A stretch of DNA of 64,000 bases from Verrucomicrobiaceae bacterium. GTDB taxonomy: Bacteria; Verrucomicrobiota; Verrucomicrobiia; Verrucomicrobiales; Akkermansiaceae. A model generated the notes under the pieces. That model had not been told where the DNA came from and searched no databases. It saw only the letters and a list, made by a program, of their open reading frames with translations. Shown piece by piece: positions 10,037-48,921 of this stretch (position 1 is its first letter; each line of letters opens with the position of its first letter). The DNA is taken from positions 1 to 64,000 of the forward strand of contig JAIXQH010000051.1 of the NCBI GenBank assembly GCA_027484055.1, read 5' to 3'. Position numbers and translations under genes: made by a program.

Positions 10037-10111
10037 GGCGGAGTAGCCAAGTGGTAAGGCAATGGTTTGCAAAACCGTCATGCGTGGGTTCGATTCCCAC
10101 CTCCGCCTCCA
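10037..10111 (+). tRNA. tRNA-Cys (anticodon GCA)
   Basis: Cloverleaf read by eye. The acceptor stem is GGCGGAG/CTCCGCC. The D-arm contains AAGTGGTAA. The anticodon stem-loop is ATGGT-TTGCAAA-ACCGT, giving anticodon GCA. The T-arm GTGGG-TTCGATT-CCCAC is complete. The discriminator T and an encoded CCA follow (10108-10111). Accessory DNA starts immediately 3' of this gene, consistent with its 3' end being an integration target, although I found no second copy of the tRNA 3' end in the window. Confidence 0.96.
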
Positions 10112-22034: not shown

Positions 22035-22422
22035 GTTCGATTTTTAACCATTTTGAAACTAGCTGGTCGATAGATCGTGTGCCAGTTCCCGATGCGAGGT
22101 AACCAAGGCCGCGCCTGAGATGGGCGTGAAGAAGTGCTGAGTCATCTAGTCCGGATATCCTGCCGGCGGCGGCATTTTTCGAGTTCAGAAGTAACGCCGA
22201 ATAGAACTGAGCATTGTCCCCACCGAATACTTTCCATGTCATTTCAATGCCATCTTCGGTAGATGCTTTACCTACAGGGGGAGGTGTGGGTTCCCGAAGT
22301 GAGACGCACAAAGCCCATCGGCAAATGATATTCCAATTCTCAATCCCAGTGTTTCGCTTAATCTTGATCAGTTGATCGCGAGACTGTTTTCCAAGCCGGA
22401 TTGTTTCAGATGGCGGTTTCAT
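21991..22422 (-). CDS. dndE: DNA sulfur modification protein DndE
   Basis: 143 residues. DndE is a small helical protein that forms tetramers, binds nicked DNA and completes the modification complex. The N-terminus has the family pattern IRLGKQSRDQLIKIKRNTGI followed by WNIICRWALCVSLREPTPP. It starts inside the 3' end of dndD (17-base overlap) and its 3' end overlaps the convergent HNH gene by 44 bases. Normal length. Last gene of dndBCDE. Confidence 0.93.
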   Translation of the reverse strand: MKPPSETIRLGKQSRDQLIKIKRNTGIENWNIICRWALCVSLREPTPPPVGKASTEDGIEMTWKVFGGDNAQFYSALLLNSKNAAAGRISGLDDSALLHAHLRRGLGYLASGTGTRSIDQLVSKWLKIELNLERPSADAIPEP

Positions 22423-24397
22423 ATTGCGGGAAGTAGCCGGGTTTTACGGATGTCGATCCGAGTTTTTCGTCGTGAGCCAGGTAGTAACTGCGGGTGACAA
22501 AGGGTTGGATGGCGAGGTGGTAATCGCCGACGATTTCCTCGTCAGTGGAAAGCAGAAGCACCTGATGGGAAGAGAAGGGGAAATAGCGCTCGATCAAGTG
22601 CTTGCGGTGGGAGGAATCGAGGCGGCCAAGCGGCGTGTCAATGATGGTGGGGATGGGTCGGCCTGAGGCGCGCGCGAGTCCCCAGAGCAAGGAGGTGGCG
22701 AGCAACTGGCGCTCGCCGGCCGAAAGGCGGTCGAAGGGCAGAGGCTTGCCCACCCGGTCGAGGAGTGTCACGGCGAAGGTCTCCGGGTCAATCGTCAGGC
22801 CGGACACGAGGTCCGTTTTCCGGAGAAGGGCCTGGAAGGATTCTAGCATGAGTCCCTCGATCTTCCGAGCGTGTTTGCGGATGATGCGTGTTTTGAAGGT
22901 GGCGAGGGTGCTGCGGACCTTGGCGGAGTGCTTGAGCATGCGATGTCGGGCATCCTCGCTGAAGCGCGCCTCCACCTCCTGGGAACCGATTTTGTCCATC
23001 TGGGCTTCCGCCCGCTCGCACTGGCTGCGCAGTGCCTTCTTGCGGACCTTGAGTTCCTCAAGCTGATGCAGGGCCACCTGGTGAGCAGCTTGTTTTTCCT
23101 GCATTTTCTTCTGAGCCGCAGCAATGCGATCCTGATCCGGGACGCGTGCCAGTTCGGCTTCAAGCCGGGTGATCCGTTCGTCGAGCCGGGCGAGTTCGCT
23201 GAGAAGCTCGCCCGCCCGCTGACGCGCGGCAGGCAGCGTGTTCTCGCGCAGGTGCATGAGCTCGGTTTCAAACCCCGGCTCAGCATCGAGAATCAGTTGT
23301 TCGTCAGCTTCCTCCCGCCGCCATTTGCGATCCTTTGCCAACTCTCTTGCAACCCGCTTGATCGCGCTGGCGGACAGCGCCTCGAAGCCAAGGATTTCAA
23401 TGATCGTTTCGTCCCGTTCCTCCATGGCTTCCACCAGCAAACGGTTGTGTCGGACCCTGATTTCGTGGTGGGCCTGGCCCTGGACCTGGGCCAGTTGATC
23501 TTGAAGCAACAGTAGCGGTAGCGGGCCGGCGGCCAGTGTGCGGAGCTCGTCCAGCTTGACCTGCTTCTGTTCTTGCAGAACCTGCAGCTCGCGCTCCATT
23601 TCATCGTGACGGAGGAACAGGCTCCCACCCTCGTTTTCGAACGCCTCCTTTGCCTTTGCGACTTCGGCGGCCAGCCGCCCGGCCTCGTTGACGAGCCGGC
23701 CTTCACTTTGAAGGACCTTCCCCTCTTCCTCATGAATGTGCGCGAGTTCCTCCTGCGCCTGATTGAGACGCAGCAGGGCTTGCGAATCGAGGGTCTCGGA
23801 TTTCTTACGGCGCTCGAACACCCGGAGGTCGCTCTCCAATCGATCGACCAAGTCAAGCCCGAGGAGCGAGTGGATCGCGGTGCCGATGATCCGCGCCGCA
23901 TGCTGCCCCTCGGCGAGTTCCTTGATCTGTTCCCCGTCGAAGAAGAAGAGGTGGGCGATTCCCACCGGTAGATAGGCCTCTAGGCTTTCGTCCCAATGTT
24001 CAGTTAGCAGTTCGTCGGGTTCGCCGTTCTTGTTTACGCGGAGGACCTCCTCGATTCCCTTGTCGGTCTGCTTCCACGAGCGCTGCAACTCGAAATGAGT
24101 TACACGCCCCTCGGCCATCCGTTGGAACTGGATGGTGATGGACGCTCCCTCCTCCGGGTCCACACCACGGTGGATGCACTCGGCAAGATAGTCCCTATAC
24201 CCCAAGTTGCCCCGGTTGGAAGTCTTGGCCTTGCGGCCATAGAAGCCGAGTTGGATGGAGTCGAGGAAGGTGGTCTTGCCGCCGCCGTTCATGCCGCCGA
24301 AGAGGATGACCGGCTTGCCCGGCTCCGGGGTGAGGATGGCTTCCTGGCGGCCGGTATAGGCACCGAAATTGTCGAGGATGACGCGGTCGAGAATCAT
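22406..24397 (-). CDS. dndD: DNA sulfur modification ATPase DndD
   Basis: 663 residues. SMC-like ATPase that supplies the energy or DNA nicking step of phosphorothioation. Walker A is GGMNGGGKTT (34-43). A central coiled coil spans about residues 200-500. The ABC signature is RLSAGERQLLATSLLW and the Walker B/D-loop is TIIDTPLGRLDSSHR. FFFDGEQIKELAEG marks the Q-loop region. The start lies two bases after the dndC stop, and the 3' end overlaps dndE. This is the canonical DndD of the island; three more SMC-type ATPases lie at 13677, 18623 and 28748. Confidence 0.95.
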   Translation of the reverse strand: MILDRVILDNFGAYTGRQEAILTPEPGKPVILFGGMNGGGKTTFLDSIQLGFYGRKAKTSNRGNLGYRDYLAECIHRGVDPEEGASITIQFQRMAEGRVTHFELQRSWKQTDKGIEEVLRVNKNGEPDELLTEHWDESLEAYLPVGIAHLFFFDGEQIKELAEGQHAARIIGTAIHSLLGLDLVDRLESDLRVFERRKKSETLDSQALLRLNQAQEELAHIHEEEGKVLQSEGRLVNEAGRLAAEVAKAKEAFENEGGSLFLRHDEMERELQVLQEQKQVKLDELRTLAAGPLPLLLLQDQLAQVQGQAHHEIRVRHNRLLVEAMEERDETIIEILGFEALSASAIKRVARELAKDRKWRREEADEQLILDAEPGFETELMHLRENTLPAARQRAGELLSELARLDERITRLEAELARVPDQDRIAAAQKKMQEKQAAHQVALHQLEELKVRKKALRSQCERAEAQMDKIGSQEVEARFSEDARHRMLKHSAKVRSTLATFKTRIIRKHARKIEGLMLESFQALLRKTDLVSGLTIDPETFAVTLLDRVGKPLPFDRLSAGERQLLATSLLWGLARASGRPIPTIIDTPLGRLDSSHRKHLIERYFPFSSHQVLLLSTDEEIVGDYHLAIQPFVTRSYYLAHDEKLGSTSVKPGYFPQYETAI

Positions 24398-24399
24398 GG

Positions 24400-26223
24400 T
24401 TAGATCGTGAGTTGGCTGGGATCGGAAGAATCGGAGGAGACACCGGTGGCGCTCTTCTTCGAGCTTGGGTTTTTCTGGGATGCCATCTGCCGTGCCCGCT
24501 GGAGAGCATCCTCCTCATTGTCGTAGAAGGAGCGCTTGAGAGTCTTTTCAATCTGATCGAACACGCCGGAGCGGCGGGCGCTGTTGCGCTGCTGAATGGT
24601 CATGCCAAGAAGATCGCGGGTCAGTTGGTAGTGGAGCGAGTCGGTTCCGCAAATTTCCGTCAGCTCCCGCATCTCATCCTGCCCGAGCACCAAGTTGTCG
24701 TCGAGCTGGCGGCCTGGGTAGGGCTCGCCGACGACATCCTGATAGATGACCGGCAGCCGGTCTTCCAGCTCGCGCTTGTCCACCACCCAGATGCGGCGGA
24801 TCTCTTCCAGCTCTGGGAAGGTAATGAGTTCGATGTTCTTCACGTCATCCGGCCCCAGCCTGCGGACCGCCATCTGTGCCGTAAGCAGGGCACGGAGCCA
24901 GCATTCCCTCGCTTCCTGCACGTAAGGTCCGCGGATCTCGCGCCAGTCATCTGCGGAGACGGAGAGGTCCGGAATCATGTCGTGTTTTCCGTTGGTCTTG
25001 GTCCCTGCCTTTGTCATGGGCATGTTGATCTGGACATTTCCGGTATTGAGCCGTCGAAAATCACGGAGGTAGCGCTCCCAATCGCGATCCCGGACGAGAT
25101 CATCAATGGTGCGCCCGGAGACCCGGGTTAAGAACTTGCCCAAGGCTTCACCGACGGGGGACTGGAAGGCTTCACGCTTGGTATGAACCTCCCGGGTCTC
25201 GCCGGTGATCCGGTCTTTCGCGAAACTGTCTTCGCGGAAATCGATGAGGTTCCGGAGTTCTAGCAAGGGCTGCATCCACTCCATCTCGGCGTCGTTCTGC
25301 ACCATGGCAGTCATGGATTTGTCCTTCTCGACGAGGGTGCAGACCCAGCAGCCGAAACGGGAGTCACCGCAGCTCGGGGTGCTGTCATCCACGACGAGCG
25401 GGCACTCTCCGTCCGCCGAGGCTCCGGCATACATGCCGAGCAGGTCGCGGTTGTTGTAACCCCACGGGTTCTTGCGCTGCATCAGGTAGAACCATACATC
25501 ATCGTTAGTCCATGCCTCAACTGGGGTGTAAATCAAGCAACCCGCGAGAGTGGCGCTTGGACTCAATCGGTCACGGACGCGATACTGTGCGTTGCGCTTC
25601 ATTACCTTCGCCCTTGCATTACTTTCCGACTTTCGTGCGCCTAGCAGCAGAATTGCTTCGCCATTCTTCGTCACGACATCGGTAATGAAACCATTCGAGG
25701 GTCGGATCTTCAGCCGTTCGGTGCACCAGCGGAACTTGTGGCGGGGTGCGGGATAGCCCTTGCCGAGGAGGTTGACCCAAAATGAATCCTCAACGGCCGG
25801 GGTGAGGCGATGGGGTTTGAAAGGCAGGCCTTTGGCTTCGGCCGCCTTGCGCATGACCTCCAGCGAATTGGCGACCCAAGCCGAGACGATCGGGTTTTCC
25901 ACCAAGGTGTCCGTCGAGATGACGTGGATGGGCTTCCTATATTGTTCTGCGGGCAGTTTCTCGATGGCGCTCCAGATGAGTTGTAGGACTGCCGTCGAAT
26001 CCTTGCCTCCGGAATAGCCGATAATCCATGGCACATTGTCGAGGGCATAGAGCTCCTGAACCTCCTGCTCCAGATGGTCGATGACGCGCTCAAAGCCGTG
26101 GGACTTGAAGGCGGAGGCTTCCGCATAATTCGGCTCGGCTTTGACAGGAGCCTCAGTGACCGGAGCGGCTGGCGTGTCGTGAGATGGCGCTGTTTTCTTG
26201 GCAGCGGATTTATTGGCAGGCAT
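24400..26223 (-). CDS. dndC: DNA sulfur modification protein DndC (PAPS reductase-like)
   Basis: 607 residues. An iron-sulfur ATP pyrophosphatase thought to activate the DNA backbone or carry sulfur from DndA. The PP-loop SGGKDST is at residues 71-77. A Cys cluster CGDSRFGCWVC with an upstream Cys in DGECPLVV fits the [4Fe-4S] site. Residues 1-35 are a Lys/Ala/Pro-rich tail not needed for the fold, and the C-terminus is another low-complexity Ser/Lys stretch. The gene is longer than the ~500 residues of many DndC proteins. It lies 50 bases downstream of dndB and 2 bases before dndD. Confidence 0.95.
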   Translation of the reverse strand: MPANKSAAKKTAPSHDTPAAPVTEAPVKAEPNYAEASAFKSHGFERVIDHLEQEVQELYALDNVPWIIGYSGGKDSTAVLQLIWSAIEKLPAEQYRKPIHVISTDTLVENPIVSAWVANSLEVMRKAAEAKGLPFKPHRLTPAVEDSFWVNLLGKGYPAPRHKFRWCTERLKIRPSNGFITDVVTKNGEAILLLGARKSESNARAKVMKRNAQYRVRDRLSPSATLAGCLIYTPVEAWTNDDVWFYLMQRKNPWGYNNRDLLGMYAGASADGECPLVVDDSTPSCGDSRFGCWVCTLVEKDKSMTAMVQNDAEMEWMQPLLELRNLIDFREDSFAKDRITGETREVHTKREAFQSPVGEALGKFLTRVSGRTIDDLVRDRDWERYLRDFRRLNTGNVQINMPMTKAGTKTNGKHDMIPDLSVSADDWREIRGPYVQEARECWLRALLTAQMAVRRLGPDDVKNIELITFPELEEIRRIWVVDKRELEDRLPVIYQDVVGEPYPGRQLDDNLVLGQDEMRELTEICGTDSLHYQLTRDLLGMTIQQRNSARRSGVFDQIEKTLKRSFYDNEEDALQRARQMASQKNPSSKKSATGVSSDSSDPSQLTI

Positions 26224-26273
26224 GAAGTGGATGAGTGGAAAATTGGGGTGCTGAGCGGAGAAGACCAGATCGA

Positions 26274-27359
26274 TCAGGCTTTGTCTTTCTTGAGATGGGC
26301 TTTTTCCACCTTTTCTTCCTCAGGGGCGAGCGCGAGACCGAGGGCCTTTTTGATGACGTTGGTGGTGAGGATCACGTTGGTGGTGACCTTTGAAACCTTG
26401 CCGCCGATCATCGCGCGGCCTTCCCAGACCTTGGCGTTGGCGCGGGACCAGTTGATTTTTCCGAGGCCGGCGAGTTTGAATTTCCAGTCGTCGGGGTGAT
26501 TTTTCAACAAGGCGTTGCCGGCCTTGCCGATGGCTTGAAGTGCGATGCCATGGGAATGGATGAAGCCTTCGCGGACTTCGCTGGCGGGCATGCGGCCGTC
26601 CTTGACCTGCTCCCATGCGGGAAAGTGGGTGGCGACTTCTTCCCAAAACTCGCGGGCGAATTTGGCGTCATCGTTGAGATTGCCGGTGGCAAGTCCTTCG
26701 ACAAGGTCGGCGCAGGCATTGTAGAACGCGGACAGGGTGAAGAGCTTGCGTGAGCGGGGAGCCAGTGAGCACTTCTCCATGTCTACGACTTCCTTGTAGA
26801 AGCGGGACTTGAGGATGACGAGCTTGGCGAGCTTCGCCTTGTCGTTGCGGTGGTCGTAAAGCAGGCCGATCGAACGACTGGGGCGGATCGCGTGCCGGTT
26901 TAGGTCGGCGAACATCTGCTGGCAGCGTTCCAAGCCAATATCGAGGAAGAAGACCACGGCAATGGTTTCGTGGGCGAGTTCAGGGCGTTGCTCGATCGCG
27001 GCCTTGATTGCCTCGCGACGGTGCTGTCCGTCATTGATGATGAACTTGGCGTCCATGGGCACCTTGAGGATGCCAAGTTTGTCCTGATCGCCCAGGGACT
27101 GGAATTCGACCATGGAGTCGATGGATACCGTGAGCGCGGAGAAAACGTAGTCGTTCGGGTTGTCGAGAACGTAGCCAGCCATTTCCGGGATGCGGCCTTT
27201 GTTGAGGATGCGCTGGGCGCGCAGCTCCGGCGGGAGTTCGTCCTCATTGAAGATGGAAATCTGGCGCATCATGCGAAGACTCCACATGGCGACATAGTAT
27301 TCGCGCCGTGCTTGAAGACCCCGGATCACGGGGAAGCTGAGAGTGGGTTCGGTGTCCAT
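26274..27359 (-). CDS. dndB: DNA sulfur modification regulator DndB (DGQHR protein)
   Basis: 361 residues. The hallmark NDGQHRREAI is at residues 109-118, with a PSRSIGLLYDHRN segment downstream. In Streptomyces and Salmonella DndB represses dnd transcription and limits modification density by binding the dnd promoter. It is the first gene of the minus-strand dndBCDE operon and faces dndA across 200 bases. Those bases contain repeated GTTTnnnAAA elements, a plausible DndB target. Confidence 0.94.
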   Translation of the reverse strand: MDTEPTLSFPVIRGLQARREYYVAMWSLRMMRQISIFNEDELPPELRAQRILNKGRIPEMAGYVLDNPNDYVFSALTVSIDSMVEFQSLGDQDKLGILKVPMDAKFIINDGQHRREAIKAAIEQRPELAHETIAVVFFLDIGLERCQQMFADLNRHAIRPSRSIGLLYDHRNDKAKLAKLVILKSRFYKEVVDMEKCSLAPRSRKLFTLSAFYNACADLVEGLATGNLNDDAKFAREFWEEVATHFPAWEQVKDGRMPASEVREGFIHSHGIALQAIGKAGNALLKNHPDDWKFKLAGLGKINWSRANAKVWEGRAMIGGKVSKVTTNVILTTNVIKKALGLALAPEEEKVEKAHLKKDKA

Positions 27360-36229: not shown

Positions 36230-37049
36230 TCGCGAAGGCCAAGTGCGGGATGAGCTCGCCGTGTGGCGCGAAGAATTTGCAGCAGCGTTGGGCGAACCGC
36301 GGGAATGGTCGGACCTTGACCCTGACGCGCATACTTCCGCACCAATCAAGCTGGACGACTCTTCCACGAGGGGCGCGATACCCAGCTCGGTTACCCCCAC
36401 CCCCCGGGGATCTGTGACAGTGGGCGTTGCTGGAGCAGACGGGGCATCCTCGGATGTTGGTATGGATGCGCCCGCCAGTCCATGCGCGGATCATTCCTCA
36501 ACGAAACAACTGCGGATCGGCCTGCCAGAGGGTTATCTGAAAGCCCTTTCGAGGGCACCAGAGCGATTGCGAGCTCGTTTGTTTTTGGCTGCGGTGTTCG
36601 GTCCAATTGAAGACAGAATCCGCCCCGACGAATTTCTGGCCGCGGCGATCCAACTGGAGCGGTCAGGCAACATCCTTCGGCAAGTGCGGCATCTTGGCCT
36701 GCCTGCCGGGTATGTTGCCGAGGTAGACAAACTATGCAGTTGGATTGGCCGGGCCTGCAACCTGCGGCGTGACAACCGTGTGTCCTATTGCCCTCGGTTG
36801 CCCGATGTTCAGGCTCGCGCATTGCAATCTCTCAAGCCACGCGAAAGGGACGAATTCGTGAGGTTTGCTTTGTCTATTTCGCGCGCGGGTGTTTTTCGCA
36901 CCCGACTGGTGTCCGACGATTATTGGATTCGGGTTGCTTGTGACTGCATCACTTGGAACTTGGAAAGGGCTCCCACCGTGGTTCCCGTTGCCGAAATCGT
37001 GCCGCTGATCATTGTGCTTGAGGGACTACGCGAGGGAGGTGCCACGTGA
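36219..37049 (+). CDS. Hypothetical protein preceding the relaxase
   Basis: 276 residues. A low-complexity N-terminal ~95 residues precede a helical C-terminal domain (IGLPEGYLKALSRAPERLRA onwards) with an RQVRHLGLPAGYVAEVDKLC segment. Its position, overlapping the relaxase start by four bases, is that of MobC-type accessory proteins, but I cannot show a ribbon-helix-helix. Function unknown. Confidence 0.65.
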   Translation: MEPDREGQVRDELAVWREEFAAALGEPREWSDLDPDAHTSAPIKLDDSSTRGAIPSSVTPTPRGSVTVGVAGADGASSDVGMDAPASPCADHSSTKQLRIGLPEGYLKALSRAPERLRARLFLAAVFGPIEDRIRPDEFLAAAIQLERSGNILRQVRHLGLPAGYVAEVDKLCSWIGRACNLRRDNRVSYCPRLPDVQARALQSLKPRERDEFVRFALSISRAGVFRTRLVSDDYWIRVACDCITWNLERAPTVVPVAEIVPLIIVLEGLREGGAT

Positions 37050-37966
37050 AAAAGATCAAAGCGGTCGCGCGGATGACTTCCCGCCGGGATGGCAAGGGCA
37101 GGCGGGCCACATTCACCAGCCAACACCGGGCGACATACGACATAATGTATTATCTCCTCTCTGCCGTTAAGCCGGGCAGCAAGGAGGCTCTTTGTGCGGA
37201 CCGCGTTTCCTGGATTGGAGGGAGTCTTGCAGGGCACGGCATCATCATGCGCAAGGCCGACCTGATGGCGGCCGCTCTAGACTGCGGGCACAAGCACCTC
37301 GAAGGACGTCGTTTTCGTAACGTCATAGTGAGTTGTGAGCCCTGTAAGGAAGATGAGCGGGAGGAGGCAGAGCGGCTACTGCAAGCGTCTGCTCCGTTGC
37401 TTGCTGCTAAACTTGGCGCGGAACGTTGGATTGCCGTGATCCACCGCGACACAAATAAGCCGCACATGCATGTGATCATTTCGAATTTTGATCGGGAAAA
37501 ACGCCGTCGATTAGAATTCTCTCCCAAATTTTTGTCGGACCTCCAGGAACTGACTTGGACGAGCCATTTGGTCAGTGGCAAGGGAGCTCAGTTGGGAGGA
37601 CACAGTGCGCGCGGCGCGGCCATTTTGGCCCTAAAAATGGCCGCAGATCCGGTAGCCACAGACCGTGCGCTCAAAAAGGTGTATGACCTCTTGGGAAGAC
37701 ACACGAAGCTGGCTTTGTCGCTGAATGACATGGCTTTGTGGCTTGCCAGTCAGTGCGCACAGGAAGGCTGGGATGGTGCCAGACTGTTGAAAAAAGACGG
37801 ATGCCCCCAAAAGAAGCCCATGATCAAGGTGGATGGCATCGATTTGGGGCTGGGGTTTTTCCAGCGATTCGTGCGCAAACACCTCAAAAAGACTCCCAAG
37901 CCGCCCGCCAAAAAACGCATCTCTCGGCGGGTTGCCCATTCAGATTCTCCCATCGGTCCCGTCTGA
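37046..37966 (+). CDS. Relaxase / mobilization nuclease
   Basis: 306 residues. The metal-binding motif III is clear: IAVIHRDTNKPHMHVIISNFD region, with H133, D135, H140 and H142 (HxDxxxxHxH). MOB relaxases nick at oriT and carry the strand during conjugal transfer. The catalytic Tyr is probably among Y31, Y35 and Y36 in ATYDIMYYLLS. It is short, with no helicase or primase extension, as in mobilizable elements that borrow a conjugation apparatus. No VirB/VirD4 genes are in the window. The C-terminus is strongly basic. Confidence 0.82.
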   Translation: MKKIKAVARMTSRRDGKGRRATFTSQHRATYDIMYYLLSAVKPGSKEALCADRVSWIGGSLAGHGIIMRKADLMAAALDCGHKHLEGRRFRNVIVSCEPCKEDEREEAERLLQASAPLLAAKLGAERWIAVIHRDTNKPHMHVIISNFDREKRRRLEFSPKFLSDLQELTWTSHLVSGKGAQLGGHSARGAAILALKMAADPVATDRALKKVYDLLGRHTKLALSLNDMALWLASQCAQEGWDGARLLKKDGCPQKKPMIKVDGIDLGLGFFQRFVRKHLKKTPKPPAKKRISRRVAHSDSPIGPV

Positions 37967-43026: not shown

Positions 43027-43827
43027 TTATGGTTGTTCGATGATCTTGCGGACTGCTGCGACCTCGGCTTCGGGCATTAGGCGCTCAAGGCGTTCCCATT
43101 GCTCCTCCTCGGTCATGAGGCGAACCACTTGTTCGAGGGGTTGGAGGGCGGCAATTTCGCTCTCTGGCAGTTGCGCGAGCAGTTCCGAGATCCGTGAGGG
43201 CTTGCGGCCTGCGCGGAGGATGTAGCGTGGGTATTTGGATTCCTTGCTGATTACCTTTTCGATGCAGATTTGCACGCCATCTTCATCGGCTAGGATGTTG
43301 TGGGCCAGGTCATCGTTTTCGTCGCGGTCACTCGCCATGCGCAGGATTTGGTAGCCCAGACCCGGAGATCCGCCCCGCTCGCCCGAGTAACCGGATAGCG
43401 ACAACAATCGCGCCACATGAGGGCTGTCATTGTCTGGACTGCTGCGGGTGATCACCCAGCAAAGCGAGAGTGGTCTGGGCAGCAACCGCAATCCCTCGCG
43501 GTTCGATTTCGAGAACAGCTTTTCTGGGACAGTCTTGTGCAAATAGGTGTAGACGTTGTCCCAGACGCTGCGCTTGGCAGGTTCGAGGGTTCTTGGGTGG
43601 GCGAATTTTCCCGTAGGCGTCTCCAGGACATGCATCGCAAGGAGCCAATCGGAAGATCCGCTGACTTTTGCTGGCACGATGCGCATCCAGTTAAGTCCTT
43701 CTGCGAGACGCAACAGGCGATCTTCGAATTTGGTCGTTAGGAGTTCATCACTGTAGCGTTTGACTGGTGCCTTTTTCCAGGGATCGACAACCGTCGAGCT
43801 GGTGGGTTGGTGTTCGGTGGTTTTCAT
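43027..43827 (-). CDS. Hypothetical protein of the mobilizable element
   Basis: 266 residues, no signal peptide or membrane segment. The N-terminal ~150 residues look like a mixed alpha/beta domain (WMRIVPAKVSGSSDWLLAMH is a strand-rich portion), which has the flavour of a single-strand DNA-binding fold, but I cannot support that. The C-terminal ~60 residues are acidic and helical (LLAQLPESEIAALQPLEQVV), resembling the acidic tails of such proteins. It has its own strong terminator. Confidence 0.6.
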   Translation of the reverse strand: MKTTEHQPTSSTVVDPWKKAPVKRYSDELLTTKFEDRLLRLAEGLNWMRIVPAKVSGSSDWLLAMHVLETPTGKFAHPRTLEPAKRSVWDNVYTYLHKTVPEKLFSKSNREGLRLLPRPLSLCWVITRSSPDNDSPHVARLLSLSGYSGERGGSPGLGYQILRMASDRDENDDLAHNILADEDGVQICIEKVISKESKYPRYILRAGRKPSRISELLAQLPESEIAALQPLEQVVRLMTEEEQWERLERLMPEAEVAAVRKIIEQP

Positions 43828-44046
43828 TATCTTATATGTTTTTCTGGTTTGGTTTTGGCTGGTCCGACCCCAAGGGTTGTTGAGTATTTATCGGATGACG
43901 TGTGGGAATTTCGCTCGGGCGAACCGACCGAAAGGTCGGGGGGAAACGAGTTGATGCTTTTGGGTATGGTCCAAGTTGGATCTCCCTCAAACTGGTTCGT
44001 AAGCAGGGCACTTGCAGCAATCCCCTCTCTTCAGTCTTTCAACGTA
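43828..44046. other. Upstream region of the 266-residue gene and first structured repeat
   Basis: Together with the repeat at 44047-44326 this forms a gene-free stretch of more than 500 bases. A CGAACCGACCGAAAGGTCGG segment near 43919-43938 contains an ACCGACC...GGTCGG hairpin possibility. No promoter was recognised with confidence. Confidence 0.35.
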
Positions 44047-44326
44047 TAGCCTCCGGTCCAATCCCCAGCGTCCGAGGATAGTGCTTTGTGGAGGGGATCC
44101 CTCTGGCAGCCTCCCGTCACCCGGCAGACGGAAACACTCGTTTCTGTCCGGGTTAGGCGGGGGTTCAAGGGGGATCGGGACCCAACGCACAAGCAAACCC
44201 GCAGGAGGTGGGCTGGCGTCGTTTCTACAGGGGGGGGGCGTTGCGGGGGGGCACACCCACCCGCTGAGATGGGTCGTGGGCAACAGAGCGCCGCGCCGTG
44301 CCCACGAGGGAAGAAGCCTCTTCCCT
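44047..44326 (+). ncRNA. Candidate structured RNA, copy 1
   Basis: About 280 bases, almost identical over its first ~165 bases to 45637-45892. Three stems are visible. Stem A is ACCCG (44119-44123) and GACGGAAA (44127-44134) pairing with TTTCTGTC (44141-44148) and CGGGT (44149-44153), with a three-base bulge. Stem B is GTGGGCA (44276-44282) with TGCCCAC (44299-44305). Stem C is AGGGAAGA (44307-44314) with TCTTCCCT (44319-44326). Differences from copy 2 keep the pairing, and G-U pairs favour plus-strand transcription. It is convergent with the gene ending at 44353. Its family is unknown to me. Confidence 0.6.
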
Positions 44327-44352
44327 GCCCCTGCTTCCAACCATCCATTGCC

Positions 44353-45009
44353 TTACTTACAGATCTTGTATTGCCGATAGTCATATTCATTATAACCGAA
44401 GCGGCACATGCCATTCATATAATAGTTTTTCTTATCTTGATTGATCCACTTTCTGGCGGCCGAATAGTTGTCAAACCAGATTATTTCTCCATCATCGCCA
44501 CGGGCCCATCGACTGGTATCGCAATTCGTGTGCTTGTCGCGGAAAAACGTGTTGATCCACACGCGACAAAGTAAGTCATAGCCACGCTTCGCAGGACTCA
44601 GGGGCGGTTTGATCCCGAATCCCGCACACTTCTCTTCGAAGTATCCCTCTTCAGACGGATGGTATTCCCGGATCACGTTTGTGACATCCGATTCGACATA
44701 GGTGAAGATTTTTCCGTCTTCATCATAGGCATACACACGTTGACCGATCTGGTAGATGTATTGGTATCCTTCATCATGCCACCAGTTTACCGAAATTGGG
44801 CCAAGCATATCAATTTTATCGCCATTGAAATCTAACAAATTTGAGAGTAATGGGTCATGCTCTTTGATTTTCATCAGTTCATCGAACGAATCTTGGGACA
44901 ACAGCGGCTTCAAACGCTTCCTGTCGGCAAGCGTGAAGATGCATGGTTCTGTAGTGGCGGTGGTGTGTTTTGGCTCCGTGGGAGCCGCTTTCTTGGTTTT
45001 CTTATTCAT
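44353..45009 (-). CDS. Hypothetical protein flanked by the two structured repeats
   Basis: 218 residues. The N-terminus is Lys/Thr-rich; the body (RKRLKPLLSQDSFDELMKIK onwards) resembles SMI1/KNR4-like or SUKH-type composition, then a Trp/Tyr-rich stretch (NWWHDEGYQYIYQIGQRVYA). The C-terminal part has FDNYSAARKWINQDKKNYYM. I do not recognise a family. It is the only gene between the two direct repeats, so it could be lost or duplicated by recombination between them. Confidence 0.6.
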   Translation of the reverse strand: MNKKTKKAAPTEPKHTTATTEPCIFTLADRKRLKPLLSQDSFDELMKIKEHDPLLSNLLDFNGDKIDMLGPISVNWWHDEGYQYIYQIGQRVYAYDEDGKIFTYVESDVTNVIREYHPSEEGYFEEKCAGFGIKPPLSPAKRGYDLLCRVWINTFFRDKHTNCDTSRWARGDDGEIIWFDNYSAARKWINQDKKNYYMNGMCRFGYNEYDYRQYKICK

Positions 45010-45636
45010 GGGGTTTTGTGTTTTGTGTTGTGTGTTCCCGCCACGGAGATCCCGGGCGAAGAAAGTCTCAATGAAGAATCAGGCCAATGCCTCGGTACGA
45101 AGCTGCTGACTGCGGATGGATGTGCTCAACGGCCTGCCTCCAGGCTCGTGGCATCGATCTCTACAAAATCCCGTTACCGCGGGATGATGGCATAGATGCT
45201 CCTAGTTCTTCAAAAAATCAGTGAAAGTCTTATTCGATACTCGCGAAGGGGTGAGCCGATGGGGGCATCATCGGTTGTTCGAAATCGCTACAGAAATTGA
45301 ATGCGCAATACCGCCGCGTCCCGTCATTCGGGTCAGGGCGATTTACACGAGCAGTTTTCATAGCGAGATTAAGTGTTACTTGATGAGGCTCCTGATGTCG
45401 AGATATTTTTACCTCGCCCGCATGCGCGTGAGCGTACCGCGCATGCACGCGCGCTCGCGCATTAAGAGTTGCCAATAATCCTAAATTTATCTGCTAAAAA
45501 AAATCTTGCGCGAGGGTCACAGGAGCCCGAAAGGGGTACGTTGTGTTCACGGTCTGAACAGCACACCAGAATCGCACGCCTGGCACATGGTCTGTTCGAG
45601 CAGACCCTCTGTTCAGAATCATCCTCATCAAACCCG
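45010..45636. other. Intergenic region with alternating purine-pyrimidine tract
   Basis: 627 bases without a supported gene. A stretch at 45418-45462 is a run of CG, CA, TG and GC steps (CATGCGCGTGAGCGTACCGC begins it, and GCATGCACGCGCGCTCGCGC follows), prone to left-handed DNA. A GGTCTG/CAGACC hairpin lies at 45589-45606 and a GTTCA/TGAAC dyad at 45545-45559, just upstream of repeat copy 2. These may be promoter or control elements for the structured RNA. Confidence 0.45.
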
Positions 45637-45892
45637 TAGCCTCCGGTCCAATTCACAGCGTCCGAGGATAGTGCTTTGTGGAGGGGATCCCTCTGGCAGC
45701 CTCCCGTCACCCGGCAGACGGAAAAACTCGTTTCCGTCCGGGTCAGGCGGGGGTTCAAGGGGGATCGGGACCCAACGCACAAGCAAACCCGCAGGAGGTC
45801 GGCCGGCGCAGTCTCTTCGGGGCGTTGCGGGGTGTCCCCGCTGAAATGGGAGCGGGCAACGGAGTGCCTGCGCGGGAAGAAGCCTCTTCCCG
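45637..45892 (+). ncRNA. Candidate structured RNA, copy 2
   Basis: About 256 bases. Stem A GACGGAAA (45717-45724) pairs with TTTCCGTC (45731-45738), with G-C where copy 1 has G-U. Stem B GCGGGCA (45852-45858) pairs with TGCCTGC (45865-45871): relative to copy 1 one T-A pair became C-G and one G-C became G-U. Stem C CGGGAAGA (45873-45880) pairs with TCTTCCCG (45885-45892), closing C-G where copy 1 has A-T. The loop of stem B is 6 bases against 16 in copy 1. No T-run follows, so a simple terminator role is unlikely. Confidence 0.6.
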
Positions 45893-45996
45893 GCCTTATC
45901 CAGAATCCCTGGACTCCAGAACAGAATCAGGAATCACCTGGCATCCCCCAAGCGGCAAGCCTGCGGATTCTCCACCCAAAACGACGGTGCCCTCCA

Positions 45997-46146
45997 CTAC
46001 TCTGGCTTGTCTTTCAGGATCACATCAGGCGTCAGTTTCCAATATTGCTCGGCATCCTCATCGGTTTTCTCTCCATCGAGGTAGTGGTGACGAACCATGG
46101 ACTCGGAGTTGCCCATCTCAACAGCTACAACCCCCACTTCTCCCAA
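45997..46146 (-). pseudogene. C-terminal remnant of a tyrosine recombinase
   Basis: Fifty codons, open from TTG 46146 to TAG 45997. The reading frame gives VVAVEMGNSESMVRHHYLDG, the motif of tyrosine recombinases in which the His-rich turn leads to the nucleophilic Tyr (here Y22), followed by DAEQYWKLTPDV, the usual end of verrucomicrobial site-specific integrases. Everything upstream (core-binding domain, Arg and His-x-x-Arg boxes) is missing; the 3' end of the Argonaute pseudogene takes its place. The junction is near 46150. Confidence 0.65.
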
Positions 46147-47560
46147 TTAAGAACCCGGCAGGAATTGTAGTTCAGTTTGGTCAGGCCCATCACGTCATTC
46201 AGAACCTGCTGAATGTCCGCCTCGCCGCGACAGATCTCCACCTCCAACGGAAGCGGCACTTCCATGCCCGGGTAGGTCTTCATGCGTGGAATGTAGCCTC
46301 TCGTCATCAGGATGGCGCTTCGATGGTTCTGCACCCACGCCAGCCCACGCAGCACCGGCATTTTTGAGCCGACCCGATAGAGACGTAAGCGCTTCGCCTC
46401 GTGGATGCGGACACCGACCAGATTGGTTTCGCTCCGAGTGGCGTCCAGAAACCCACGCCACTCCTCGGCGGAGTAGCGGACTTTTCCGTGGATGAAGACT
46501 TCCCTGGGGTTCCGCCCGGAGTTCTTGGATCGATAGGATTCCAGCGCCTGCTCCAGCAGCATTCGGGCGGCGGCGGCGCTCAGATGAAATTCACCTGTCT
46601 TTGGTGCATACCACTCGCCAATGTTACCTTTGAAAACTACCCCATCGCCGGAGTCTAGGAACATCTGTGCCGCGCAGCAGGCGGTTTCCGGTGACGCGTG
46701 TTTGGTGTCCTGTTTGAAGACCAGCCCGAGGTAGCAAATCCCTTCGCGCACGCCATCCAGCTTCCACGGCCGGGCACCCAGCTTGTCATACATCGCCGAG
46801 CTGAGGTTCCACGCTATCTGCGACTGCAAGGAGTCGAGGTTCTGGAGCGGTTTCCCATTCGGCTTGAGAAACTCATGATGCGCGATCGTCCCTTCTTGGA
46901 TGATCTGCGTCACCACCCCCGCCGCCAGCAGCCGCCCCTTCAGTTGATTGTGGAAATCCGGCTCATACTGATAGGCTTCGGCGTCCTTGTTCAATTGCTC
47001 GAACAGGAATGGCTCACTTTGCACCTTACGCGCCGCACCCATGCTCATCCGACCCGTCGCCTCGATCCGCTTGCTTTTCAGCACGACGGATTCCGGTCGG
47101 CAGAACTGCCTCACGAAGTTCGGAATCACGATGATCCACACCTCCGGCTTCACCTCCTCGTCGCGGAGCGCCCTCAGGATCAACTCCGTGAAAAACCGCA
47201 CCGTCTCGAAGTTCCGCCTGTGGCGGTCATTCAGCATCACGACCTTTCGCAGCTCCTCCTCCCCGAAGCTCAGCTCCAAGGCCGGGTTCACGCTCCAAGG
47301 CATGCCAAAGGCAGCCTCGAATCCCGGATAGGGTGGCCGTGAGCGTTCCTTCCCTGCTTCGGAAATCGGCCTCTGAAGCTTTGAAATCCAATTCCTCAAC
47401 GCCGACTACCCTCCTTCGTGGCGACCACTCCGTACTTCACGCCGTAGTTCTGCGCCGGGTCATGCGGACCCAGTAGCGTCAAGCCGTCCCTCGGATCTTC
47501 CAGCGACTGGTTGTAGCCGAAAAGCAGGCGTGGCTCGGGCAGATGGATCAGATCGGGCAT
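46125..47560 (-). pseudogene. Short prokaryotic Argonaute (MID-PIWI), frameshifted and 3'-truncated
   Basis: ATG 47560 overlaps the end of TIR-APAZ by 13 bases. The first 54 codons (MPDLIHLPEPRLLFGYNQSL onwards, to VVATKEGSRR) match the N-terminus of short pAgo proteins, then TGA at 47396-47398. The rest continues in another frame from TTG 47399 (LRNWISKLQRPI). One missing base explains the break. MID/PIWI landmarks include WKLDGVREGICYLGLVFKQD, PREVFIHGK and GLTKLNYNSC. The usual PIT(I/L)KFAxxVG ending is absent because the gene runs into a recombinase remnant. Expected PIWI tetrad Asp residues are lacking, as in other short pAgos. AAGGAGG 10 bases before TTG might allow restart. Confidence 0.78.
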
Positions 47561-48921
47561 TCTTCCTCCTCTTCTTCAATCGGCTCTGCGTCGGGTTCAT
47601 CGTCATCCGAAGTGGCATCGGACAAGACCGCTTCGAACGAGACAGGGCTTTCAAAACGCAGTGGCCGCGCGTCGACCTCGAACGCGGCATCCTCTCCCAA
47701 CGGAACCCGGATCAACGACTCCGAACCCTCCTCCGCCAGAAACGCCATCGCCGCGAGCATCCGCGCAAGCCAGGTATCATTGTGCCACATCCGGCATTGG
47801 CTCCGGCGAGAGCTGTGTTGCCGCGTGGCACTTTCGTAAAGCGCCCCGTCCTCCGAAAAAACCACGTGCGATTTGATCACAATGACCGGCTCCGGCCAGC
47901 GTATCACCTGCGGTTGAATGCCGAAGTGCCAAGTGCGAAACCTCTCATCGCCATCCCGAGCCAACAGCTTGCTCTTCCCCACCATCCGGCGATAGGTCTT
48001 CTTCTTGAGTAGGTCTAGGAATTCCACCTTGTTCCCTTCACGAAAGCCCTCCGAGAACCAGAAGGACCGCGCCGCCCCGGCCAGATCGTACTTCCTCAGT
48101 CCGGCCGCAAGGCATCGCCGCTCGAAACCGTCCCTTAGCAGCGCGTGCATGATCCGGTTCGACTCGTTCCGGGCGATGTTCATCTGTGGCTCACCCTCAA
48201 AGTAGAAGCGCTCAGCGTCCAAGCATCTCGACTCCTCGACGGTGATTCCCATGGGTTCCAGCGCTTGAATCAGTTCCTTCGGAGTTTGGAACGAAAAACC
48301 GCCCGCTCCGAAGCGACGGAATGGATAGCTCAGCGGAAGCGGATCGGGCTTCTTCTTCTCACCGAGCAGCGAGTGAAGGAAAATTCTCTGTGGAAAGGAC
48401 CGGATCGGAAACCAATTGCAGGCCTACGGCTCGCTGCGGGCGATGACCGCCTGCCCGGAATAGAGGTTGTCCTGCCACCAGGTCGCCACAGCAGCAGCAT
48501 TGAAGCGCGGGTACTTGGGCACCCCGTCTTTTTCCAGCTTCTCCAACAGCTTCACGAGACCTCTCATCGCTCTACCCCGGAAGTCGATGGAGTTCAGTCT
48601 TGTCAGTTCGATGGTCGTTTCATCCGAGGCGAGGTCATCGATCTTCATAGGGATCACAAAGTCCTCGCGCCCCTTGCCGACACGCTTTGCCAGCGCCAAC
48701 TCCTGTAGTACCCCCGGCTTTTCGTTGGAGGTTTTGGAGAGGACAAAAAGAAACTTCGTCGTCCGGTTGCGAATCGCGTCCTCGATGTCGCTCCAGAAAT
48801 CCTCGCCGCCCAGCAGCTTGGTCAAGTCACACCAGACCGGATACCCCTCCCGTGCCAAGCGCAACGCCAGCCAACGGGTGAAATCGTTGTCTTCGGGAAG
48901 GGCATGGCTGAGGAAAATCAT
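47548..48921 (-). pseudogene. TIR-APAZ protein of a SPARTA-type system, interrupted by an in-frame TAG
   Basis: Read through, the frame spans 457 codons before TGA 47548-47550, matching the ~450 residues of TIR-APAZ proteins. The TIR domain (residues 1-130) has MIFLSHALPEDNDFTRW, a WCD...GGEDFWSDIEDAI segment with the likely NADase Glu, and FLFVLSKTS. A TAG at 48424-48426 (codon 166) follows ...IARSEP. The same frame stays open for 57 more codons (ACNWFPIRSFPQRIFLHSLL is the first part), linking to the APAZ region from ATG 48252. In working SPARTA, guide-loaded pAgo triggers NAD depletion. Amber, frameshift and truncation together suggest decay; a sequencing error cannot be excluded. Confidence 0.78.

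Follow-up and report, generated by a model that had tools for sequence, protein, structure and literature searches.

The closest described counterparts of the repeat analysed here are the intrastrand triplex repeats PIT, BoxC and TMECO. As portrayed in the sections of the source that deal with them, these share with our element a single strand that carries mirror-related purine tracts together with a hairpin, in a G/C-rich purine motif, as well as an intergenic location, many copies in some genomes and a copy number that varies widely among relatives (PMC4666352). TMECO of enterobacteria is described there as a class II element (pyrimidine strand, purine strand, third strand) of 34-37 nt that forms a single triplex; it is recorded from 262 proteobacterial genomes and is said to be absent from mobile elements (PMC4666352). 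The same account credits PIT elements with neither promoter nor terminator activity, reports conjugation to be unaffected by them and saw no triplex signal in footprints made in vivo (PMC4666352). The element described here also appears to belong among the purine-motif intrastrand triplex repeats, since its third strand mirrors the hairpin purine strand through the triads G.G-C, A.A-T and T.A-T. It differs from TMECO in being class I, with the third strand first, in its length of ~75-95 nt, in having two predicted triplex units, one of them with a looped-out hairpin, and in its occurrence in several phyla, on plasmids and islands. The BoxC/PIT/TMECO consensus, CCCTCNCCC-N3-6-GGGNGAGGG-N3-GGGNGAGGG, has the class II order and does not describe it; its own order is third strand, purine strand, pyrimidine strand.

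Other known systems resemble the element in part. A likeness exists to the dispersed intergenic palindromic repeats of the REP/BIME type, which are associated with RAYT (Y1) transposases; from these it is set apart by the lack of a tie to PF01797, by its triplex mirror tracts and by its presence also as a single copy on conjugative elements. The Frpo/ssi single-stranded DNA promoters are, like our element, structured DNA before establishment or anti-defence genes of conjugative elements, and the main text of the paper concerned does not use the word ArdC (PMC11541004). Many chromosomal copies are, by comparison, a feature of our element, and -10 and -35 boxes of the Frpo type, both within one mismatch of the sigma70 consensus, were found on either strand in 0/70 elements, in a scan confined to this sigma factor and to the elements without their flanks. 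The EGeRS of pLS20-family plasmids are likewise conserved inverted-repeat sequences ahead of ardC, and are distinguished from our element by their description as sequences of 420-750 bp on Bacillus plasmids (PMC8708921). In the portion of that work concerned with their activity, the EGeRS tested had no constitutive promoter and blocked read-through, and the authors consider a single-strand promoter highly unlikely (PMC8708921).

The window, which is the whole stretch of 64,000 nucleotides that was analysed, comes from a Verrucomicrobiaceae genome. The first-pass annotation proposed a duplicated sequence of ~255-280 bp, and sequence comparison bears this out, with two plus-strand copies at 44047-44329 (copy 1) and 45637-45895 (copy 2). 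On the plus strand, identity is 94% over 186 ungapped nt (44047-44232 against 45637-45822) and 78% between 44285-44329 and 45851-45895. A third copy, 90% identical to copy 2, lies outside the window at C61:74672-74975, 29 kb away. All three are carried by one island of ~66 kb, the borders of which are a 48-bp repeat in tRNA-Cys; the left end (10064-10111, plus strand) has 100% identity over 48 bp to C61:76375-76422, also outside the window. The island encodes a MobA/VirD2-like relaxase (37046-37966, plus strand; PF03432, E 3e-6). A stretch downstream of copy 2 (45990-46158, minus strand) recurs with 89% identity after copy 3, where a 400-aa ORF ends in it; this ORF gave no Pfam match, and we read it as the island integrase. 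Since the ~170 nt that come after copy 2 are thus shared, at 89%, with the sequence following copy 3, copy 2 is part of a longer duplication of the right end of the island. The neighbouring region 46125-48921 (minus strand) holds a short pAgo (PADLOC pAgo_I, E 2.5e-148) and, beside it, two ORFs, 47548-48252 and 48424-48921, each of which corresponds to one part of a single TIR-PNTD model; together they form a SPARTA-like system, in which the TIR gene looks split. The same island holds a DndB protein (PF14072), a PAPS-reductase-like protein and an SMC/AAA ATPase at 22406-27359 (minus strand), which are probably DNA phosphorothioation (dnd) genes.

The near identity reported for the first 165 bases is real, at 96% among copies over the first ~170 nt, and yet this part does not belong to the conserved structure. 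It is a 5' flank (44047-44218 in copy 1, 96% identical to 45637-45812 in copy 2, both on the plus strand) that contains stem A (44127-44148 and 45717-45738, respectively), and of 194 genomes in the window's phylum the present one alone contains it. As these first ~170 nt are seen only in this island, the idea that the full 255-280 nt form a single unit was rejected. In copies 1 and 2, reading frames on the minus strand span the private 5' flank; in the 3' part the copies differ in their indels, some of which have lengths not divisible by three.

The conserved element is the last ~75-95 nt of the repeat, 75-95 nt being its typical length. Its consensus reads GGGGCGTTGCGGGG-NNN-CCCCGC, followed by a purine tract J (AGAAGGGG), a T, a variable hairpin H2 and a terminal hairpin H3 (GGGGAAGG-CTTTCCCC). 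Two mirror relationships run through it: in GGGGCG-TT-GCGGGG the second half mirrors the first and in turn pairs with CCCCGC (unit 1), and J in reverse order matches the H3 purine strand (unit 2). In copy 1, as read from the plus strand, unit 1 (44230-44264) comprises a third strand at 44230-44240, a TT loop and a hairpin at 44243-44264, with expanded G runs and one mismatch; J (44265-44273) has a mirror match at 7/9 positions, the first seven consecutive, and is followed by H2 (44275-44306) and H3 (44308-44325; purine strand 44308-44314, pyrimidine strand 44319-44325). Copy 2, on the same strand, has a perfect mirror repeat and hairpin in unit 1 (45819-45841), within a covariance-model match at 45819-45893 (E 1.1e-12); its J (45842-45850) matches at 6/9 positions, including 6 of the first 7, and H2 and H3 are read at 45852-45871 and 45874-45891. 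In copy 3 the mirror match of unit 2 extends to 9/9 positions. The arms of H2 pair above permuted arms throughout the family (0.551 vs 0.441, z 5.9, 0/2000 permutations, 28 clusters), and the loops of H2 and of the first hairpin hold inserts of tens of nucleotides in some copies. A different H2 core is seen in Myxococcales copies (genomes G228 and G210; loci L260-L279 and L296-L298), where a GCGTAT..ATAGC-like sequence with one bulged G replaces the A.G mismatch found elsewhere.

The base pairs on which the first-pass annotation relied can be read as quoted. Stem A has G44130/T44145 in copy 1 against G45720/C45735 in copy 2, and G-C in copy 3; stem B, which is H2, has T44277/A44304 against C45853/G45870 and G44278/C44303 against G45854/T45869; stem C, which is H3, closes with A44307/T44326 against C45873/G45892. 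Stem A sits in the part private to the island, and stems B and C belong to the element of several phyla. Compensatory change is suggestive with two or three copies, and strong with the 70 distinct and 28 clustered elements considered below. That the wobble pairs work only on the plus strand fails to single out RNA, since single-stranded DNA, when folded, can have G.T wobbles as well.

The relationship between the two purine tracts of unit 2 was examined by scoring G:G, A:A and T:A as allowed (third strand : hairpin purine). Before this, 32/143 pattern hits were dropped, 10 of them for want of a G run after unit 1 and 22 because they had no perfect H3 reaching 6 bp. For the 70 distinct J/H3 combinations among the 111 parsed elements, the mirror match was 0.833 vs 0.687 with permuted hairpins (z 10.6, 0/5000). 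Permutations model shared ancestry incompletely, and the guard against this is clustering by similarity; with one element for each of the 28 clusters, the score was 0.859 (z 7.2, 0/5000 permutations), falling to 0.625 or below when the register was shifted by 1-2 nt. In a second set of 40 elements fetched by covariance model, 26 were parsed and 14 dropped; the mirror score had a z of 2.7 and was reached by 43/5000 permutations, a weaker value because only 12 distinct combinations remained. The direct-repeat control was null throughout (z -0.1 for the 70 combinations, 0.5 for the 28 clusters and -1.2 for the covariance-model set), and Watson-Crick strand exchange between J and H3 was rejected on these three values. 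Inverted pairing of J with H3 was also null in the 70 combinations (z 1.4, 532/5000). The substitutions themselves are informative: T stands opposite A in 23/121 cases and opposite G in 7/189 (p 1.5e-5), or in 10/43 and 3/78 when clusters are used (p 0.0017), an enrichment that agrees with the prediction for T.A-T triplets. At position 4, T is present in all 8 distinct combinations that have A in the hairpin strand.

Unit 1 is less variable than unit 2, and its mirror match was 0.993 vs 0.968 permuted (z 11.1, 0/5000) in 167 distinct elements with a perfect hairpin, a score that counts a longer third strand as a match, rests largely on run lengths and leaves out anchors without such a hairpin. 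The third-strand run reaches at least 5 G in 11/12 elements with a five-G hairpin strand vs 34/189 with four G. Individual variants also follow the rule. One Treponema copy has AAGG against GGAA, an A facing each of the two A positions; in the window's phylum, A stands opposite a terminal A in three copies; and the Fibrobacter variant GGGGTTTTAGGGG..CCCCTA (L201, L202, L208) keeps the mirror rule with T opposite A. It is not followed in GGGGCGTTACGGGG copies, where a hairpin base has changed while the third strand remains G, and 9/10 copies read from the Fibrobacteres genome G224 are without the third strand of unit 1. At loci L280 and L282-L289 of that genome unit 2 is present, the first hairpin is reduced and there is no third strand.

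Taken as patterns in the sequences, the hairpins and both mirror relationships are thus supported by covariation. Covariation between third strand and hairpin across distant bacteria is hard to explain unless the triplex is selected. The triads G.G-C, A.A-T and T.A-T with an antiparallel third strand define the purine motif. Such antiparallel triplexes are stated, in the part of the source that discusses RNA, not to form in RNA (PMC4666352), and for this reason the G-rich strand as single-stranded DNA is most likely what selection acts on. We infer from these patterns that the double triplex would form in cells and that single-stranded DNA would be the active molecule. In unit 1, the 5' G-rich third strand would lie on the G/C hairpin that follows it; in unit 2, the purine tract J would lie on H3, with the variable hairpin H2 looped out between them.

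Two other readings of the G-rich tracts were weighed against this fold. The C-rich complementary strand could be the active one, as RNA or DNA, through a pyrimidine-motif triplex; G-rich mirror repeats do imply a pyrimidine-motif partner on the opposite strand for the G.G-C and A.A-T triads, as set out in the pertinent part of the source (PMC4666352). For T.A-T triads, however, the pyrimidine motif offers no valid partner; T is nonetheless enriched opposite A and is the base found wherever hairpin A occurs at position 4, in all 8 distinct combinations. This possibility is already disfavoured and appears very improbable. The consensus also has four runs of three or more G, which could act as a G-quadruplex, although that structure would leave unexplained both the C tracts that pair with the G runs and the matched A and T positions; we give it hardly any credence.

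The question of a structured RNA deserves separate consideration, as the repeat was first put forward as a new one. Part of that proposal stands, namely a conserved folded nucleic acid outside the known families, with covarying hairpin arms and no Rfam match on the element; the RNA nature is not supported, as the strongest covariation is the mirror one, which follows the DNA triplex rule. Rfam found only tRNA in the whole window, a single weak snoU54 match, off the repeat, in 43800-46100 up to E 5, and Termite-leu plus one tRNA, both outside the element, at 18 element loci at gathering threshold. The Termite-leu match (RF01730, L046:4479-4555) is ~1.4 kb from an element and probably unrelated. 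Transcription of the G-rich strand into a small RNA or cis-element would fit the covarying hairpins, the variable hairpin amid conserved surroundings that is typical of RNA, and an H3 that looks like a terminator hairpin. These features are outweighed by the mirror covariation with T opposite A, the mark of a purine-motif triplex, stated in the relevant passage to be impossible in RNA (PMC4666352), by the absence of an Rfam match, and by the mixed orientation of neighbouring genes in many-copy genomes (+/+ 18, +/- 11, -/- 10, -/+ 8), a small sample of the 47/67 elements with two called neighbours, in which 19/67 elements lay inside ORFs chosen by length and probably spurious. An RNA gene is accordingly an unlikely explanation.

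Pieces of the element matched 44 plasmid records by blastn: 33 from Campylobacter, 4 from Ketogulonicigenium, 3 from Paracoccus and 1 each from Treponema, Magnetospira, Granulicella and Caulobacter, the Campylobacter matches listed spanning 31-32 nt. The exact pattern of the first hairpin occurs in at least 119 stretches of genome contigs and in 18 stretches of IMG/VR contigs; some of these hits are chance occurrences in coding DNA, and 10/143 have no following G run. Named matches include Treponema, Fibrobacter, Chitinispirillia, Alphaproteobacteria, Myxococcales, Acidobacteria, Verrucomicrobia and Nitrospinaceae. In phages blastn detected no match to the element, and a blastn search with one copy of it was negative for 5,426 E. 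coli genomes. Copies were counted with R1, a covariance model built from unit 1 and H3. By this measure the genome of the window has 3 copies at E <1e-6 and two weak matches near E 0.4 and 1, the window's phylum has matches in 6/194 genomes (1-3 copies each), and the order of Nitratireductor, which we take to be Hyphomicrobiales, has them in 20/121 (1-3 copies each). In the genus of Treponema bryantii 34/39 genomes are matched, with 0-64 copies per genome. Of 35 genomes identified from hit loci, those of Alphaproteobacteria, Acidobacteria and Verrucomicrobia carry 1-2 copies, and copy numbers are 5-111 in the 17 from Treponema, Fibrobacter and relatives, Chitinispirillia, Spirochaetaceae and Myxococcales.

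Copy numbers of this kind, up to 111 in a genome and 0-64 among the 39 genomes of the genus of T. bryantii, invite the explanation that the element is a passive repeat, a REP/MITE-like parasitic DNA moved by a transposase in trans, with a fold needed only for transposition. Orthologous sites in the genus Fibrobacter point the same way, as the element is present in some genomes, a variant in some and neither in others. Against this, no clean insertion boundaries were found: L213, L209 and L214 are without the element at the site of L037, with flanks that differ and no target duplication that can be read. PF01797, the REP transposase family and the sole transposase family searched, was detected in 10/39 genomes and is missing from G219 (64 copies) and G232 (55 copies), so mobilisation by RAYT is not supported. 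Where the element stands as a single copy ahead of ardC, its constant position and orientation further suggest a role there. We regard a purely passive repeat as rather unlikely, though it can be reconciled with the structural part of the preferred explanation, the purine-motif fold of single-stranded DNA. In many-copy genomes the element may be a parasitic repeat, or may serve replication or repair. Another intergenic repeat of Fibrobacter, GTGAGCCATAAGTGACTCGTCTTAACGAGTC-like, precedes the element or occupies the same site at L205, L208, L211 and L215. The origin of transfer (oriT) and integron attC sites were considered after the plasmid matches and dropped on context, as many copies adjoin housekeeping-like genes.

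The position of single copies is most regular beside ardC. An ArdC profile, seeded with four proteins of which three are among its matches, found 32 ORFs near 190 element contexts, corresponding to 24 distinct loci (8 being places fetched twice), in Alphaproteobacteria, Acidobacteria, the window's phylum, an Oceanobacter MAG and two IMG/VR contigs. In 24/24 loci ArdC is encoded on the opposite strand, to the left of the element, with one ORF, as called, running across it; the distance between the element and the start of ArdC is usually 83-90 nt in Alphaproteobacteria and, for the three loci that belong to the window's phylum, 270-295 nt. In the order of Nitratireductor, ArdC stands beside 12/20 further elements, in the same orientation in 12/12; these are 20 of 23 covariance-model matches and may overlap the first 24 loci. 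Six of the eight others have a different gene of ~400 aa at the same place and strand behind a similar leader (no Pfam match in the one tested), and two of the 20 (L308, L318) have neither. A CTCTCACTCT-like stretch lies directly left of the element in 19/20 of these loci (L305-L324 except L318), and this leader is similar up to the first gene in nine loci examined further, including loci in which the other ~400-aa gene replaces ArdC. The Campylobacter plasmid copy is an exception, with a recognisable unit 1 only and ardC on the other side; it falls outside the 24 loci because the scan required a following G run. PF08401 is absent from the many-copy genomes G203, G219 and G228, where no link to ardC is seen, and contig C61 has no ArdC, the ArdC genes of the window's genome being on other contigs.

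On plasmid pYP1 the gene order is element, ardC, DUF2958, parB, ..., repA, parA, DUF3363, traG and trb, with the genes on one strand; we take the DUF3363 protein to be the relaxase. In such plasmids oriT usually lies beside the relaxase gene, and the relaxase gene enters last. If this holds for pYP1, the G-rich strand would be both the transferred strand and the template of ardC. In the window's island, if oriT precedes the relaxase gene, the G-rich strand would be the non-transferred one. ArdC itself is a protein that attaches to single-stranded DNA and is required on the recipient's side (PMC7213743). From position and orientation, the element would work during DNA transfer at the establishment operon. 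A conjugative strand enters the recipient single-stranded, and its G-rich strand could fold into the double triplex, offering a site, specific to the single strand, at which a protein, a primase or RNA polymerase could act. Such a site might control the start of the adjoining establishment operon, with ardC and its relatives, through early expression or second-strand synthesis. The element travels with plasmids and integrated islands, and in several lineages it has multiplied as an intergenic repeat.

Overall, the element is probably a DNA element and not an RNA gene, its G-rich single strand being able to fold into two tandem antiparallel purine-motif triplexes, which may serve in DNA transfer. 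Intrastrand triplex repeats are known from PIT, BoxC and TMECO; what is new here is the class I double unit with a looped-out hairpin, its presence in several phyla and its location on mobile elements. The literature searched on its motif, on triplex repeats and on Fibrobacter and Treponema repeats, a scope with most subscription journals outside it, contained no description of the element, and its part on triplex repeats contained no report of third-strand covariation. If the fold is correct, it would be, to our knowledge, the first DNA triplex with a third strand backed by phylogenetic covariation. More tentatively, two intrastrand triplexes with a looped-out hairpin, selected in several phyla, could be a single-stranded-DNA signal that is read in trans on conjugative entry and starts an antirestriction operon; we offer this as a possibility that falls somewhat short of probable.

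The role of bacterial intrastrand triplexes has been open since PIT and BoxC were described, and the footprinting and functional tests covered in that account gave no function (PMC4666352). In the present element, changes in the third strand go along with changes in the hairpin in distantly related bacteria, and single copies hold a fixed place before ardC operons. The mirror-covariation test can be applied to whole genomes, and may bring to light other DNA folds that are missed by RNA tools.
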